Of a stretch of 64,000 nucleotides of DNA, positions 1,223-47,961 are shown piece by piece; position 1 is the stretch's first letter, and each line of letters begins with the position of its first letter. The DNA is from Bacteroidota bacterium (GTDB taxonomy: Bacteria; Bacteroidota; Ignavibacteria; Ignavibacteriales; Ignavibacteriaceae): positions 1 to 64,000 of the forward strand of contig JAKAGV010000019.1 of assembly GCA_021815405.1 (NCBI GenBank), in the 5' to 3' direction. A model generated the notes under the pieces. The model was not told the DNA's origin. It worked only from the letters and a program-made list of their open reading frames with translations, and made no database searches. Both the position numbers and the translations under genes were made by a program.

Positions 1223-2908
1223 ATGAAAGAAGGATTAAACAAATACAGTAAAAGATTAACTCAAACTCGTTCTCAAGTGGGTTCACAAGCAATGCTGCAC
1301 GGTATTGGATTGACTAATGATGATTTCAAGAAAGCACAAGTTGGCATTGCAAGTATGGGCTGGGAAGGCAACACTTGCAATATGCATCTGAATGACTTAG
1401 CAAAGCTTGTAAAGAAAGGCGTAACAGATGCCGGTTTAATCGGATTAATTTTTCATACTATCGGCGTTAGCGATGGTATAGCAATGGGCACCGAAGGAAT
1501 GAAATATTCATTACCATCAAGAGACATCATTGCTGATTCGATTGAAACTGTAATGAGTGCACAGTGGTATGATTCACTCATTGCAATTCCGGGCTGCGAT
1601 AAAAACATGCCTGGTTCCGTAATGGCAATGGCAAGATTGAACCGACCAGCTATAATGATTTACGGCGGAACAATAAGAGCAGGATATTTTCAGGGAAAGA
1701 AGCTCGACATTGTTTCTGCTTTCGAAGCATACGGGCAATACCTTTCAAAAGAATTTACAGAACAGGATCTTGAAAATGTTCTTCACCATGCTTGTCCCGG
1801 CGCCGGTGCATGCGGTGGAATGTACACCGCAAACACGATGGCTTCTGCGATCGAGACTTTGGGAATGAGTCTTCCTAACAGCTCTTCCTGCCCCGCAAAC
1901 AGCGAGATGAAAACCAAAGAATGCTACGAGACAGGCAAAGCAATTCTTAATTTAATGGAGTTGGATTTAAAACCGAGAGACATTATGACCAAAAAAGCAT
2001 TTGAAAATGCAATCACGGTTGTAATAGCTTTGGGAGGCTCTACAAACGCTGCCCTTCATTTAATTGCAATGGCAAAAGCAACCGGTGTCGATTTAACTTT
2101 AAATGACTTCCAAGAAATCTCTAACCGCACACCTTACATCGCAGATTTGAAGCCAAGCGGCAAATTTGTTATAGAAGATTTATATGAAATCGGAGGCGTT
2201 CCGGCTGTTCAAAAACTTTTATTGAAGGAAGGAATGCTCGACGGAAATTGTATTACGGTAACAGGAAAAACTTTGGGAGAAAATATTGAAAACCTTCCAG
2301 ACTTAAAGGAAGGACAGAAGATAATTTTCCCATTGAATAATCCTATTAAGAAAACAGGGCACTTACAAATTCTTTATGGAAATCTTGCTGAAGAAGGAGC
2401 CGTTGCAAAAATAACAGGCAAGGAAGGATTGAAGTTTAGCGGTCCAGCAAAAGTTTACAACTCCGAAGAAGAAACACTAAAAGCAATCGAAAGAAAAGAA
2501 TTGGCTGCCGGTGATGTTGTAGTTATCCGTTATGAAGGACCGAAAGGCGGACCCGGTATGCGTGAGATGCTTGAAGTAACCGCTGCTATTGTAGGCGCAG
2601 GTTTAGGCAAGAGCGTTGCGCTTATTACAGATGGAAGATTTTCCGGAGGAACTCATGGCTTCGTTGTCGGGCACATTACTCCTGAAGCGCAGGTCGGCGG
2701 AAACTTAGCATTACTAGAAAACGGAGACATAATTACAATCGATGCTGAGAAGAATGTAATATCAGTAGATTTATCCGATGAAGTTCTAGCTGAGCGTAAA
2801 AGCAAATGGATACAGCCTCCTTTCAAAGCAAAGAGCGGAATACTTTATAAATACATAAAAAGCGTTTCATCAGCTTCAGAAGGTTGCGTTACCGACGAAC
2901 TAAACTAA
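1223..2908 (+). CDS. ilvD: Dihydroxy-acid dehydratase
   Basis: 561 aa, full-length IlvD/Edd family motifs ([66 protein letters not shown]). Confidence 0.95.
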
Positions 2909-2965: not shown

Positions 2966-3350
2966 AAACCTTTTACTTATACGTCAACCTAATTTTATTA
3001 CTCCTTCTTTTAATTATTTCTTTTACAATCCATTACTCCCTCAAGGAGTTAGATTTTTTAGGTCGGAGATAACACACACCTGCTTATAATTTTAACGAAA
3101 TAATTTTGAACTCCAACAGAGTGATATAAAAATGCAATCCTTTTAATATTGATTAGAATACAGATCATATTACTAATCTGCGTTATAATGATCTAAATTA
3201 TTAAGTTGATATTTATTTGACTTAATCCAGGTATTTTACAGAACATTCTTTTCCATTTAATTCAAAAGTTACTATTAAAATCCCTGCTTTTTCATGTAAA
3301 AAAGCATTTGTAAGCCTGTAATTGATTTTAGCAGATATGTTCCAAACCGG

Positions 3351-3602
3351 AAATATTCTGCTAAACTCCGGCAGATATCAACTGAAACCAGGCGAATATC
3401 AGCTGGAGTCCGGAAAGTATCAGCTGGAGTCCGGAAAGTATCAGCTGGAGTCAGGAAAGTATCAGCTGGACTCCGGAAAGTATCAACTGGAGTCAGGAAA
3501 GCATCAACTGAAGCCAGCAAAGTATCATCTGGAGTCAGGAAAGTATCAACTGGAGCCAGGAAAGTATCAACTGAAATCCGGCAGGTATCAACTATAATCC
3601 GG
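3351..3602. repeat. Tandem array of 12 x 21 bp (consensus AAAGTATCAGCTGGAGTCCGG), plus a partial 13th unit
   Basis: Hand-parsed: every unit is exactly 21 nt with no indels; edge units are most diverged. Confidence 0.95.
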
Positions 3603-3744
3603 CGAATATCAGCTAAAAAGAAAAATAAGCAACTAAAGATAAGTAAATAATAGCCTTGTGATTTTATATCACAATTAATATTTGTGAATTGATAATAATC
3701 CGGAATATTTTTCCTTCACTTATAAATTTATCTTCATTTTAAAT

Positions 3745-3880
3745 TTAATAACTCACGTTACGCACATGTCATGCTGAACTTGATTCAGCATCCCAAAAAT
3801 GCTGAAAAATGAGATTCCGAATCAAGTTCGGAATGACAAAGTAAATTAGATCCTTAATTGTGCGTAACGTAAGTTAATAA
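3745..3880 (-). repeat. MITE-like palindromic element, copy 2 (inverted relative to copy 1)
   Basis: 136 bp; reverse complement differs from 535-670 at only a few positions. Confidence 0.85.
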
Positions 3881-3888
3881 AATAAAAA

Positions 3889-3911
3889 GGCGGATGCATT
3901 TCGCACCCGCC
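3889..3911 (-). terminator. Intrinsic terminator of the 3943-5796 gene
   Basis: Minus strand GGCGGGTGCGAAATGCATCCGCC followed by TTTTTATT. Confidence 0.8.
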
Positions 3912-3942: not shown

Positions 3943-5796
3943 TTATTTCATCAGCATCATCTTTTGAATCTTAATTTGATTTCCTTGACGTAACTGATAG
4001 AAATAAACTCCTGAGGAAAGCTTCGATGCATCAAAGTTTATCGAATAAGCTTGTCCGTTGGTTGCGATACCATTAAACAAGGTTGAAACTTCTTGCCCGA
4101 GTACGTTGTAAACTTTCAGAGTAGTCAATCCGGTTTTATCTACTGAAAACTTTATTACAGTAGCTGGGTTGAAAGGATTGGGATAATTCTGAGAAAGATT
4201 AAAAGTAGTCGGTGCTGAAATTACTTGAGCTTCAACAACATTGCTATATTCAAACTTACCGCTGTAATCAATCTGTTTCAAACGGTAAGAGTAACTGCCT
4301 GGTTTCAGGTTTTCATCAATAAATGAATAAGCATTTCCTGTGGTTGAATTTCCGTTGCCTTTAACAAAAGCAATCTTGGAATAGCTAACACCATCAGAGC
4401 TTCTCTCAACATCAAAGCCCGAATTGTTAGTCTCAGTTGCAGTCTGCCAGGTTAATGTAACAGACTTCTGGTTAACAGCAGCAGTAAATGAAGAAAGTTC
4501 TACAGGCAAAGTACCGGCTGGTAGAAAATCAGTTGTGTATCTTGGCAGTACTTGATATCCGCCTACACCGGAAGAAGCGAACTGAGAACCAATGCCAATA
4601 ACATCAACTGGCCAGGTAGGTTCTGTCATCTGATATAATTTGGTATCCGAATCGATATAGAGTTGAAGCGTATCAGCGCTGTTAGCATCTTTCACATAAA
4701 CTGATTTATTTGAAGATGTCGTTGGCCATGTACCGCTTGTTTTTGAAACTCCGACAAAACAGATTAAATGAGATTCATATTTTTCAGCATTAGTCAGATA
4801 TTCTTGGACGGTTAATCTTTCAGGTTGTGGCAATACAGCGTTTTGCTTAACAACAACTACGCTGCTTGTATCTGAATCAATATAAGGATTAATTTCAAGT
4901 AATCCATTATACATTATAGTGCTGCCAACAACAGTAACGCTGTCACCAAGATTTAATGATGGCATAAATTTTAACCCGTAGGAAAATAAATCAATTCCAT
5001 CAGTTCCATCCCAGATATAATACGATTTGTTAGATGTTTGATAGTTTGGCGAAATAACAACGCCTGAAACAGCAACTAATGTATCTCCACCGGAACTTTT
5101 CATAGTTCTTGCATTAGCCAAGGTAGTTTGGGGAGCCGTTTCTCCAAAAATCTGAGCATATTGTGTGTTTATATATTTAGAAGTAGAAGATGAAGTAGCA
5201 TCATACCAAGGATAAATCCTAAAATAAAGCGATTGTCCTTCTTTAACTAGAACCTTTAGTCTATAACCATAATGAGATAGAGAATCTCTGTAGGGAACAA
5301 CACCTGTATCTGCTGGATTTAACAGTGTTCTAGTAGCGAAAGTTGGATCTGAAGAATAATATAGATTTGCTCTAATATGATCTGTAGTTCCACTGGCACC
5401 AAGATAAATGGAGACGGAGTCTACAATAAATGCATTGCCGGACTTAGGAGCCGCTGTAAATTGAATCCATCTGTTAGGATTCTCAAGTGTATCACTCCCG
5501 CCCCAGCTTACTGCAGTACCGTTAATAGCAGGATACCACCGCATCGCTTTGGTTACACCAGGAATCGGACTGTTTGGAGCTCCGCCGGACATATCTTTGA
5601 TCGCTAAAGTATCTCCGTGTGTAACTACTTGCGCCGTAATATTTCCAACGGTAGTAGTAGGAGATAAAGAGTCTGCACCAAAAAGATTCCAGGTAACCGA
5701 AGCTGCTGATTGCCCGAAAGTTAAAGAAGCTGAAAAGACAAGAGCCAGGAAAAAGAAAAGAGAAGAACGTACCAATCGTGTTTTCATACGATTCAC
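3943..5796 (-). CDS. Secreted protein with OB-fold-like repeats and T9SS type A C-terminal sorting domain
   Basis: Signal peptide MNRMKTRLVRSSLFFFLALVFSASLTFG; C-terminus NYPNPFNPATVIKFSVD...LKVYNVLGQEVSTL...LSSGVYFYQLRQG...KMMLMK. Confidence 0.85.
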   Translation of the reverse strand: MNRMKTRLVRSSLFFFLALVFSASLTFGQSAASVTWNLFGADSLSPTTTVGNITAQVVTHGDTLAIKDMSGGAPNSPIPGVTKAMRWYPAINGTAVSWGGSDTLENPNRWIQFTAAPKSGNAFIVDSVSIYLGASGTTDHIRANLYYSSDPTFATRTLLNPADTGVVPYRDSLSHYGYRLKVLVKEGQSLYFRIYPWYDATSSSTSKYINTQYAQIFGETAPQTTLANARTMKSSGGDTLVAVSGVVISPNYQTSNKSYYIWDGTDGIDLFSYGLKFMPSLNLGDSVTVVGSTIMYNGLLEINPYIDSDTSSVVVVKQNAVLPQPERLTVQEYLTNAEKYESHLICFVGVSKTSGTWPTTSSNKSVYVKDANSADTLQLYIDSDTKLYQMTEPTWPVDVIGIGSQFASSGVGGYQVLPRYTTDFLPAGTLPVELSSFTAAVNQKSVTLTWQTATETNNSGFDVERSSDGVSYSKIAFVKGNGNSTTGNAYSFIDENLKPGSYSYRLKQIDYSGKFEYSNVVEAQVISAPTTFNLSQNYPNPFNPATVIKFSVDKTGLTTLKVYNVLGQEVSTLFNGIATNGQAYSINFDASKLSSGVYFYQLRQGNQIKIQKMMLMK

Positions 5797-44310: not shown

Positions 44311-46581
44311 ATGAAGAACATCCGTATAATACTTTTGCTTGCTTGTATGTTTACGATTGCCACTAATGCACAGGTTATGATGAAGAAAGCAAAAGAGGAT
44401 TTACCGAAAAGCTACCCCGTTGACGGGACACCGCTTCTTTATAAACAAGATATTCAAGTTGCTCAATGGATTAAAGCCCATCCGGATTATTACAGCAAGA
44501 TGAGATTGCAGAAAACTGCCGGGTGGGGATTTACAGTCGGCTCAACGCATACTTGGCAGGCATATAATTTTACCAACGGACAATTTTACTCCGTACCGTC
44601 TACTTGCCGCGGTATAGGACCACACTGCTACGTATTTGTTGAAGATGCAAACTGGAATGTTAAAGTTAATCAGGCAGCAGTTGACTCGATTGTAAATGAA
44701 TTTGAAAATAAGACTCCTGCTAATCCGAACATGGGAATTTACCAAACAGATGTCAATACTTTCGGTAATCCGCCGGATGTAGACGGCGATCCCAGAATCA
44801 TTATTTTAATTCTGGATATTAAAGACGGCTTCACAGGTACAGGCGGTTATACTGCCGGATATTTCAGCTCTACGAATGAAATAAATACTTACGGAAGCAA
44901 CATGGCTGAAATATATTATATGGACTGCAATCCGACTGACCTTACAACAACAGACGGGCTTAACACAGCACTCGAAACTTGCGCACATGAATTTCAACAT
45001 ATGATTAATTGGAATTACCATCAGACATCTACAGAATGGACTTTTGTTAATGAAGGTCTTTCGATGGCAGCGGAAATTGTCTGCGGTTACCCGCCGGAAT
45101 TTCCTGAACTTTATGCAGGAGAACCAAACCATTTCTTATTCGACTGGAGAACAAACGATAATACATTAGTACTCAATGATTATTCCCGTGCCCAAAGATT
45201 TTTTATGTATTGGATAGATCAATTTGGTGCCGGAATATTAAAGTATGTAGTTATGGATAATGCAAACCATGGCGTTGTTGGCGCTGCAGGATTAAGTTAT
45301 GCTTTGAAGGATGATGGTCAATCTTTAACTCTAAATCAGGTATTTAACAACTGGCTTATAGCAAATGAGTTGAACAATAAGTCAGTTAACCCGGCATGGG
45401 GTTATTCATATACCGGATTGCCGAATTCTGTTCCAAAATCTTTTTATAATCCGGATGTTAACGAAACTGATACAATTCAGAATTATGCTGCGGAATATCT
45501 TACGTTTACAAACTCAAAAAACTTAAACATTACTTTTAACAGTACAAGCAAGCCGCTAATTAAAGCAATTGAAACAGGCGGAAGCGGAAGCCCGCGGGTT
45601 GTTGATGTACCGTTAAACACGGCATTCTCCGACGCCGCCTACGGAACAACTTACAGCACCATCAGCTTTGTTGTTATCGATACTAATTTAACAGGCGAAA
45701 CGGAAGTTTCAGCGCTTGATAATATTGTTTCTTACACTTCAACAGGAACTGTTCTTTCAAATGTATCTGAATTGAAGTGGGACGATACTGAACCGACAGG
45801 TTATTATGCCTGGACATCTAATGATACTTTGTGCGTTACTTTTGATGCCTATCCGGGAGGAAAGCTTGATTCAATTAGAGTTGCATTAAGAAGAGCTGGT
45901 TCTATCTCTGGCGGAGTTTGGCAATATACAGGAGGTACAGATCCTACTCCATTAGGGCAACCACTAGCTGTACCTATTACAGCTTCAATTTCTACAACTG
46001 TTTCTTATCCTTATCCGGTTCCATATTCCAACTGGGCTACTGTTGATTTAAGATCTTACAATATCTCTACTAACCAACCATTTGCCGTTGGATTTGTTAT
46101 CGGTTCGGTTCCAAATACACCTGGTGTAATGGCAACAGATTATGCTTCATCAAGCCCATATCATAGTTATACGTATTTGCAAACCAGCGATCAAGTATCA
46201 ACGCCTGGCTGGTATTATATTACAACTAACAATGCAGGCGATACCGTTGCAATATATTTAATCCGCGCTTATGTTTCTCTCGTTACCGGTGTTCAACAGG
46301 AAGTGGAATTAACTCCAAGAGAATATTCCTTAGCTCAGAACTATCCCAATCCTTTTAATCCATCAACGACAATTAATTTTGCTCTGCCTAAAGCCGAAAG
46401 AGTTAGGATTGTAATTTATAATCAGCTTGGTCAGCAGGTTGCAGTTGCAGCAAATGAAAATTATTCTGCCGGAGATCATTCGATAAATTTTAATGCTTCA
46501 GGATTAGCAAGCGGAATTTATTTTTACAGAATCTCGGCAGGCAGCTTTGTTCAAACTAAGAAGATGGTTCTTCTTAAATAA
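44311..46581 (+). CDS. Secreted zinc metalloprotease-like protein with T9SS type A sorting domain
   Basis: 'ETCAHEFQHMINWNYH' HExxH motif and 'FVNEGLSMAAE'; C-terminal 'NYPNPFNPSTTINFALP...YNQLGQQV...GLASGIYFYRISAGSFVQTKKMVLLK'. Confidence 0.88.
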   Translation: MKNIRIILLLACMFTIATNAQVMMKKAKEDLPKSYPVDGTPLLYKQDIQVAQWIKAHPDYYSKMRLQKTAGWGFTVGSTHTWQAYNFTNGQFYSVPSTCRGIGPHCYVFVEDANWNVKVNQAAVDSIVNEFENKTPANPNMGIYQTDVNTFGNPPDVDGDPRIIILILDIKDGFTGTGGYTAGYFSSTNEINTYGSNMAEIYYMDCNPTDLTTTDGLNTALETCAHEFQHMINWNYHQTSTEWTFVNEGLSMAAEIVCGYPPEFPELYAGEPNHFLFDWRTNDNTLVLNDYSRAQRFFMYWIDQFGAGILKYVVMDNANHGVVGAAGLSYALKDDGQSLTLNQVFNNWLIANELNNKSVNPAWGYSYTGLPNSVPKSFYNPDVNETDTIQNYAAEYLTFTNSKNLNITFNSTSKPLIKAIETGGSGSPRVVDVPLNTAFSDAAYGTTYSTISFVVIDTNLTGETEVSALDNIVSYTSTGTVLSNVSELKWDDTEPTGYYAWTSNDTLCVTFDAYPGGKLDSIRVALRRAGSISGGVWQYTGGTDPTPLGQPLAVPITASISTTVSYPYPVPYSNWATVDLRSYNISTNQPFAVGFVIGSVPNTPGVMATDYASSSPYHSYTYLQTSDQVSTPGWYYITTNNAGDTVAIYLIRAYVSLVTGVQQEVELTPREYSLAQNYPNPFNPSTTINFALPKAERVRIVIYNQLGQQVAVAANENYSAGDHSINFNASGLASGIYFYRISAGSFVQTKKMVLLK

Positions 46582-46655
46582 CGTTTATAACTTAACGTTT
46601 TATTACTTATAAAACACCGGACAGCAAATGTAGTAATACTAAATTACCGCATTTT

Positions 46656-46685
46656 ATGTTGGGTAACTGTTTAGTTGCCCAACAT
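46656..46685 (+). terminator. Terminator-like hairpin of the T9SS metalloprotease gene
   Basis: ATGTTGGGTAAC-TGTTTA-GTTGCCCAACAT, T-rich tract shortly after. Confidence 0.7.
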
Positions 46686-46765
46686 CAAATATAATTTTTG
46701 AATCTATTTCATCTTCAGTTAACCGACATTTTGACACAATCAGATGTAATTATGGCAAGGTAAAC

Positions 46766-47017
46766 ATTAATTCTTGCTTGTTTGCAATTTATTCTTCTGA
46801 GTTTGCGATTTATTCTTCTGAGTTTGCGATTTATTCTTCTGAGTTTGCGATTTATTCTTCTGAGTTTGCGATTTATTCTTACATGTTTGCGATTTATTCT
46901 TACAAGTTTGCGATTAATTCTTGCTTATTTGCATTTTATAATTAAAAGGCGAGAAGTAATTGTTACAAGATTATGTTTTATTTTTAAGAGGTTTGCTTTT
47001 AATTCAGTCTGTTTGAG
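46766..47017. repeat. Tandem array with 21-bp period (core ATTTATTCTTCTGAGTTTGCG), 8 clear units plus 4 degenerate in-phase units
   Basis: Units 46787-46870 are four identical copies; decaying units stay in the 21-bp phase to about 47017. Confidence 0.9.
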
Positions 47018-47109
47018 TTTTGAAATAATAGGTAAATTTCAAATAATAGGTTAAGATATTCCCAAATCACTTATTTCATTACTAAAAAGCCCATTTAAAT
47101 TCTAAAAAA

Positions 47110-47961
47110 TTATTTCATAACAACCAAACCCGGCGTCCATACAGTTGAAATGCCGAACATTAGTCTGCCGCTGCTGCGCATTACCACCCACAAGCCGGGA
47201 GAAACCGGACCAATCTTAATTATGCCAGGATAAATATTCAAATCAATGCGGTAGCTCGTTAATCCGCTGACAAACAATGATGACATCAAAGAGTTATCAA
47301 TATCATAAAACAATCCAACATTCCAGGTCATCTCAATTGTTTTTTGATTTACAGATTGATTTATAGTAACAAGATGTTTAGCCCGCAAACCGGCGCCGAA
47401 AGAAATGGCTTTGCCGTCTTTAAATTTATAAGAAAGCCCGGTAAGCCCGTTCATTCCGAAGTAATAAAATAAATGCCATGAATCCGAGAAAGGCAGTTTC
47501 CATTTAATTGAAAAATACTGTCCGTTGTTTTGCAAAGTTTTGTTTTTCAGATCGAAAGACGGCTGAAGAGACCAATCGGTTAGGTTCAACTGCTCGCTGA
47601 AGAATTTGTCAACGCCATCAAAGCTGAAAAGGACAATACCGCCGATATCGAAAACATAAATATCAGGAATTGGATCTTCATTATCACCGACATAAGCGCC
47701 GTTTTCAACAAACTCATTCATTAAATGATAAGTCGCCATAGTTGCGAGAGATAAAATTTCAGGATCAGGAAAATTATGCTGTTCATACCATTCCTTAACG
47801 GCAATAAAAGTCATCCCGCCGCCGATCAGATGCAATTGATAATTGGGCCACCACTGCGCGCCCTTCTGTGCAAAGTCAATTGGGAAAATTTCGTTCTCTA
47901 AAAATTTTCCCCAGCCGTATCTTCTAATTACAGGAAAAGGATTGCCGAGATTATGAAGCAC
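47110..47961 (-). pseudogene. Outer-membrane-type protein, probably 5'-truncated
   Basis: 'YGWGKFLENEIFPIDFAQKGAQWWPNYQLHLIGGGMTFIAVKEWYEQHNFP'; no ATG or signal peptide; in-frame TAA only 11 codons upstream of the GTG. Confidence 0.5.

Follow-up and report, generated by a model that had tools for sequence, protein, structure and literature searches.

The window analyzed here, the whole 64,000-nucleotide stretch C9:1-64000 of a 4.97-Mb draft genome in 31 contigs (G000), carries two arrays of 21-bp tandem repeats, both located in convergent gaps beside the 3' end of a T9SS CTD gene. Array 1 (about positions 3331-3634, no strand assigned) has ~14 units of 21 bp with the consensus TATCArCTGgAGtCnGGAAAG, and array 2 (about 46725-46955, likewise without strand) has ~11 units of 21 bp with the consensus TTTATTCTTnnnaGTTTGCGA. 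TRF places the core of array 1 at 3376-3611 (period 21, score 261-293) and the near-perfect core of array 2 at 46780-46922 (period 21, 6.8 copies, 94% matches, score 223), and in neither array does it report an indel at that period. Degenerate units that remain in register are present at the edges of both, widening the TRF cores to 3331-3634 and 46725-46955.

The 3' neighbor of array 2 (44311..46581, plus strand) codes for a T9SS CTD protein with a Por_Secre_tail match above cut-off and a weak Peptidase_M30 match, and is a probable metallopeptidase. A terminator-like hairpin read from the sequence, ATGTTGGGtAACtgtttaGTTgCCCAACAT (46656..46685, plus strand), lies between this gene and the array, and a convergent gene with no family assigned (47110..47961, minus strand) is on the far side. 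At array 1, the CTD gene (3943..5796, minus strand; Por_Secre_tail above cut-off) has its own terminator-like hairpin, GGCGGaTGCattTCGCAcCCGCC (3889..3911, minus strand), also read from the sequence, and a MITE copy of 136-140 bp (3742..3882, no strand assigned) is located between the gene and the array; the convergent partner is a gene named ilvD in an earlier note on this DNA (1223..2908, plus strand), present in one copy and with congener orthologs 86-92% identical. The CTD genes are the only two in the window, as that note had stated, with the next CTD matches at C9:75551 and C9:112178, and TRF and the Por_Secre_tail matches confirm that two 21-bp arrays lie beside them in convergent gaps. 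The placement therefore stands, and the distances differ slightly from those given for it (184 bp for array 2 and 340 bp for array 1): array 2 begins 198 bp from the stop of the CTD gene when measured to the TRF core and 144 bp when measured to the first degenerate unit, and array 1 is 331 bp from its CTD gene to the core and 309 bp to the degenerate edge.

The period of exactly 21 bp is found genome-wide. A sample of 2.77 Mb (56% of the genome) was taken in 20-kb stretches, 2210 genes were called in it with a purpose-built codon-pair model, and 856 intergenic pieces (294 kb, MITEs masked) were scanned for lags without gaps. Lag 21 has 26 loci, lag 42 has 25, and lag 63 has 15, compared with one locus at lag 20, two at lag 22, and none at lags 23 to 32; Markov-resampled intergenic DNA gives no lag-21 loci compared with the 26 observed. 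Merging gives a total of 25 arrays in the 2.77 Mb, mostly of 6-22 units each, and one of the called arrays (C23:615120) is really a 7-bp repeat. Consecutive unit matches are spaced by exactly 21 in 277 cases, and at C23:73318-73779 there are 22 units in register at 40% divergence from their own consensus. Unit profiles are alike solely within array families, with z > 4 in 7 of 406 pairs and the remainder largely unrelated. One repeat length, 21 bp, is dominant among the non-coding arrays of this genome, and the proposal that the two window arrays share a period but not a sequence, and are defined by architecture, holds well beyond the window. The arrays have homogeneous cores and degenerate edges. 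In other genera, a period survey by spaced 6-mer patterns gave mostly chance matches and a few arrays of 19, 21, 22, and 23 bp, and it is uninformative. A congener carries a highly homogeneous array with a 42-bp period, equal to two 21-bp units (L203:355-782), which adjoins a MITE tip (L203:261-287) and is weakly similar to the array at C23:485797.

Several known systems share some of these features. VNTRs and minisatellites are also tandem and gain or lose whole units, but they have many periods per genome, whereas one exact period dominates here. REP/BIME elements are extragenic and dispersed, often beyond gene ends and sometimes in tandem, and a transposase of the Y1 (RAYT) type mobilises the REP units, which are conserved palindromes; the present arrays are similarly extragenic and dispersed, but their units are mostly non-palindromic (dyad P < 0.05 in 4/25 arrays) and differ in sequence, and a pattern search found no MPNHxHLL-type protein among the 2210 genes called in 56% of the genome. 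Plasmid iterons are helix-phased direct repeats of 17-22 bp, in which one sequence is read by a cognate Rep at one origin; the present arrays are direct repeats in that size range, but they occupy ~25 loci and their sequences differ.

The arrays fit the description by Subirana and Messeguer of bacterial tandem repeats that are constant in size (20-21 or 52 nt) and variable in sequence (PMC8161180). Most of those repeats are non-coding, a species has several families of them, and their conservation between strains is partial. The new element class considered in the earlier note is thus already published, at least in its defining features of a constant 20-21-nt size and variable sequence. In that source the repeats are called enigmatic, a survey is cited (J Bacteriol 2020, e00229-20), the 20-21-nt size is equated with two helical turns, and nucleoid proteins or small RNAs are suggested, these ideas on their role being guesses only. 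The likeness extends to the large number of non-coding arrays in a genome, their single fixed length, unrelated families, dispersed copies, and partial conservation between relatives, and the differences are that the host here is an Ignavibacteria-like member of the Bacteroidota and that the shortage of indels is measured; period exactness and indel shortage are therefore now quantified in another bacterial group. The linkage to small gene families on the 5' side, the array ortholog, the empty site, and the orphan copy go beyond the portion of that text consulted.

Several arrays have diverged siblings elsewhere in the genome, so that the arrays are not all locus-specific in the way suggested for arrays 1 and 2. 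Array 1 has a sibling at C2:131931-132212 (77% over 283 bp, 1 gap) and array 2 has one at C14:189192-189449 (70% in the match at 189192-189410); similarly, the C23:73318 array is related to C1:78337-78491 (75%), and C21:156028-156339 to C9:79866-80176 (87% over 312 bp). A whole-genome search with the C25:146190 array found no sibling. An ortholog of the C2 array is present in the congener G007 (L188:1084-1349); its flanks are conserved, its core is more diverged, and the two arrays differ in length by 63 bp, which corresponds to three units; arrays turn over between species by whole units. In addition, a 21/42-bp array follows the metalloprotease ortholog in L199 and is absent from the orthologous gap in L200. 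Next to the C2 array, a non-coding stretch of about 270 bp (C2:132210-132500; L188:740-1050) appears in the alignment to be more conserved than the adjacent gene, which has 90% nucleotide identity between the two species.

The MITE beside array 1 belongs to a family of about 75 copies in the 2.77 Mb, with two subfamilies and terminal repeats like AACTxACGTTACGCA, and further copies are present at C2:131725-131863 and C12:129520-129656. At the C2 locus G007 has the empty site, with a 7-bp target duplication, TTATTAA, and at C12:129520 the array runs on at both sides of the MITE. These insertions identify the MITEs as passengers, and we rejected them as a source of the arrays, since they sit inserted in arrays or at their edges.

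Most arrays outside convergent gaps face a gene start, and 17 genes start within 500 bp of an array. These include four full-length paralog pairs against an expectation of 0.03 (permutation P = 5e-5), and this test is independent of the choice of family, although the families themselves were recognised post hoc. One is a family of 203-205 aa with a fibronectin type III-like C terminus (C12:234296, C2:101379, and C21:155432), and another, of 126 aa, has a DSDEYELLGGTKxSxRKxPVRK tail (C11:291774 and C23:404168); all members of both in the 2.77 Mb, 3/3 and 2/2, respectively, have an array upstream. The 126-aa protein also has a homolog in a different species (L202:16242-16628), with a 21-bp array ~140-370 bp upstream of it; a second Fn3 protein (C30:6246) follows an array, and so do proteins of 236-237 aa at C2:130992 and C25:192623, as well as the G007 ortholog of the former. 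For the 203-205-aa and 126-aa families, Pfam and NCBIfam give no assignment other than a fibronectin type III match that is weak or partial, and the array-linked proteins have no clear relatives in plasmids, viral contigs, or PHROGs. None of the significantly similar unit-profile pairs joins the arrays of paralogous genes, so that the period has been retained there and the sequence has not. Small gene families in which all members have an upstream array are a concrete association, and they turn the role of the arrays into a testable question.

A LuxR-type regulator (L202:15014-15691) adjoins the L202 array. Its three closest relatives in G000 (C2:102712-103440, C2:127913-128467, and C25:195337-196065) each lie no more than 3.5 kb from an array that has a small gene linked to it.

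An array can also occur without its gene. The copy at C9:79866 retains the C21 array and ~50 bp of leader but the gene is absent, and it is clearly an orphan array. Array 1 has no adjoining gene start, and its C2 sibling lies upstream of a 236-aa gene; arrays 1 and 2 look like orphan copies as well.

The explanation that we consider best, with a probability of roughly 40%, is that these are spacing-constrained, helically phased protein-binding arrays. A length of 21 bp is two turns of B-DNA, and arrays 1 and 2 are two copies of a dispersed, genome-wide intergenic class in which the period stays at 21 bp while the unit sequence drifts. The units would be putative binding sites along which a protein assembles on one face of the helix, such that insertions and deletions are removed and most substitutions are tolerated. 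The arrays may then act in cis beside small genes, either in upstream control or in local DNA packaging, and those in convergent gaps, including arrays 1 and 2, could be orphans left by duplication or gene loss.

The spacing component draws on the ratio of substitutions to indels. Gapped profile alignment counts 2381 substitutions and 20 indels in the arrays compared with 260 and 11 in MITE copies (odds ratio [OR] 5, P = 1e-4), a ratio that is suggestive of a spacing constraint but short of proof because the ungapped scan that found the arrays is biased toward indel-free ones and the MITE copies used as the yardstick are younger, at 3.5% divergence. Several features argue against protein binding. 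Unit sequences differ so strongly among arrays that no single sequence-specific protein could recognise every one of them, A-tract phasing is absent and dyad symmetry is restricted to a minority of arrays, and a few arrays of 19, 22, and 23 bp are present in other genera. The column heterogeneity of the arrays may also partly reflect shared descent of their units.

A neutral origin is a strong competitor and still somewhat short of an even chance, with protein-binding arrays narrowly favored over it. By this account the arrays are satellites, in which lineage-specific slippage or unequal exchange yields duplications of ~21 bp, for example if two helical turns are the offset at which strands misalign most readily, and ectopic copying spreads them, substitution decays them, and they persist without function in large gaps. 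Homogeneous cores with degenerate edges are consistent with this, as are the change in unit number between species, the presence of an array in L199 and its absence from the L200 gap, the location of arrays in longer gaps that are often hit by MITEs, and the fact that coding, curvature, and RNA covariation were not detected. However, the 21-bp peak is sharp across unrelated sequences, indels are scarce although units are up to 40% diverged from their consensus, and the linkage to paralogous genes is non-random, all of which argue against neutral satellites.

A more specific and rather doubtful form of the binding-array explanation is that the arrays are the cis half of a dispersed small-gene module. 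The proposed module would comprise an array followed by a short protein gene (for an Fn3-tailed protein of ~205 aa, the 126-aa protein, or others), sometimes beside a LuxR-type regulator; its spacing would be under selection, the module would duplicate, and solo arrays such as 1 and 2 would be relics. If so, the unexplained constant-size repeats would gain a genetic partner and a test.

A role for the arrays as transcribed RNAs, either structured or small, is unlikely. About 10 arrays do fold better than column-permuted versions of themselves, with C30:5904, C21:156086, and C9:79920 among the strong ones, and Bacillus 52-nt repeats are transcribed (PMC8161180). But compensatory covariation across arrays is absent (combined P = 0.39), the dyads that reach significance are in the same 4 of 25 arrays noted above, the window has no Rfam match, and structure alone leaves the exact 21-bp DNA period unexplained.

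It is very improbable that the arrays belong to T9SS CTD genes, as the earlier note proposed. The genome has 139 TIGR04183 matches, and 91 CTD genes are assigned among the 2210 called. With the window counted, TRF arrays of 20-22 bp follow 3/89 CTD and 14/2107 other 3' ends (nominal P = 0.03), but two of the three positives are the cases that prompted the idea. Outside the window, an array is present in 1/40 CTD gaps compared with 16/511 other gaps (OR 0.79, P = 0.73, in the 2.77 Mb), and gaps of at least 150 bp with a CTD 3' end have an array in 3/42 cases, including the two discovery cases, so an array at each CTD gene is not the rule. The 3' flank could be read for six metalloprotease orthologs; it contains an array in L199 and none in L198, L200, L202, L203, or L204. 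The T9SS link is refuted for the 56% of the genome sampled, and the two arrays beside two T9SS genes are a warning that such a locus-level coincidence is unfit as a rule.

All three arrays beside CTD 3' ends are in convergent gaps, and it is these gaps, not CTD genes, for which there is weak support for a mild enrichment: they hold 5 of the 22 arrays outside the window on ~9% of intergenic bases (P = 0.036), with gap length as a confounder (the median MITE-free gap is 741 bp with an array and 417 bp without). This part of the earlier proposal survives in a weak form; most arrays elsewhere face a gene start.

Coding of heptapeptide repeats by the 21-bp units was rejected and is just as improbable. 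Array 1 does have an open frame of 91 aa with a YQLESGK repeat, and substitutions in it spare the second codon position, but TAA stops interrupt this frame in the sibling arrays of C2 and G007. Stop avoidance is not above that of column shuffles in 23/24 arrays, there is no shared codon phase, and the intergenic DNA scanned (294 kb) shows no lag peaks at 18 or 24. Neither coding nor A-tract bending nor a general RNA structure is thus supported, A-tract curvature being rejected with no AA/TT phasing at 10-11 bp within units (mean z of 0.0 in 25 arrays).

Two other types of repeats are present in the same genome. There is a second, smaller class of intergenic array with an 11-bp period, with seven lag-11 loci (e.g., C5:29986, C12:271951, C11:7369, C21:24552, and C26:25606). 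At C26:8865-9816, repeats with a period of ~65-67 bp are built on GATTTCAATTCTATAGTAGTTCGATTAAAAC and resemble a CRISPR array, and this is probably the source of the loci at lags 65 to 67.
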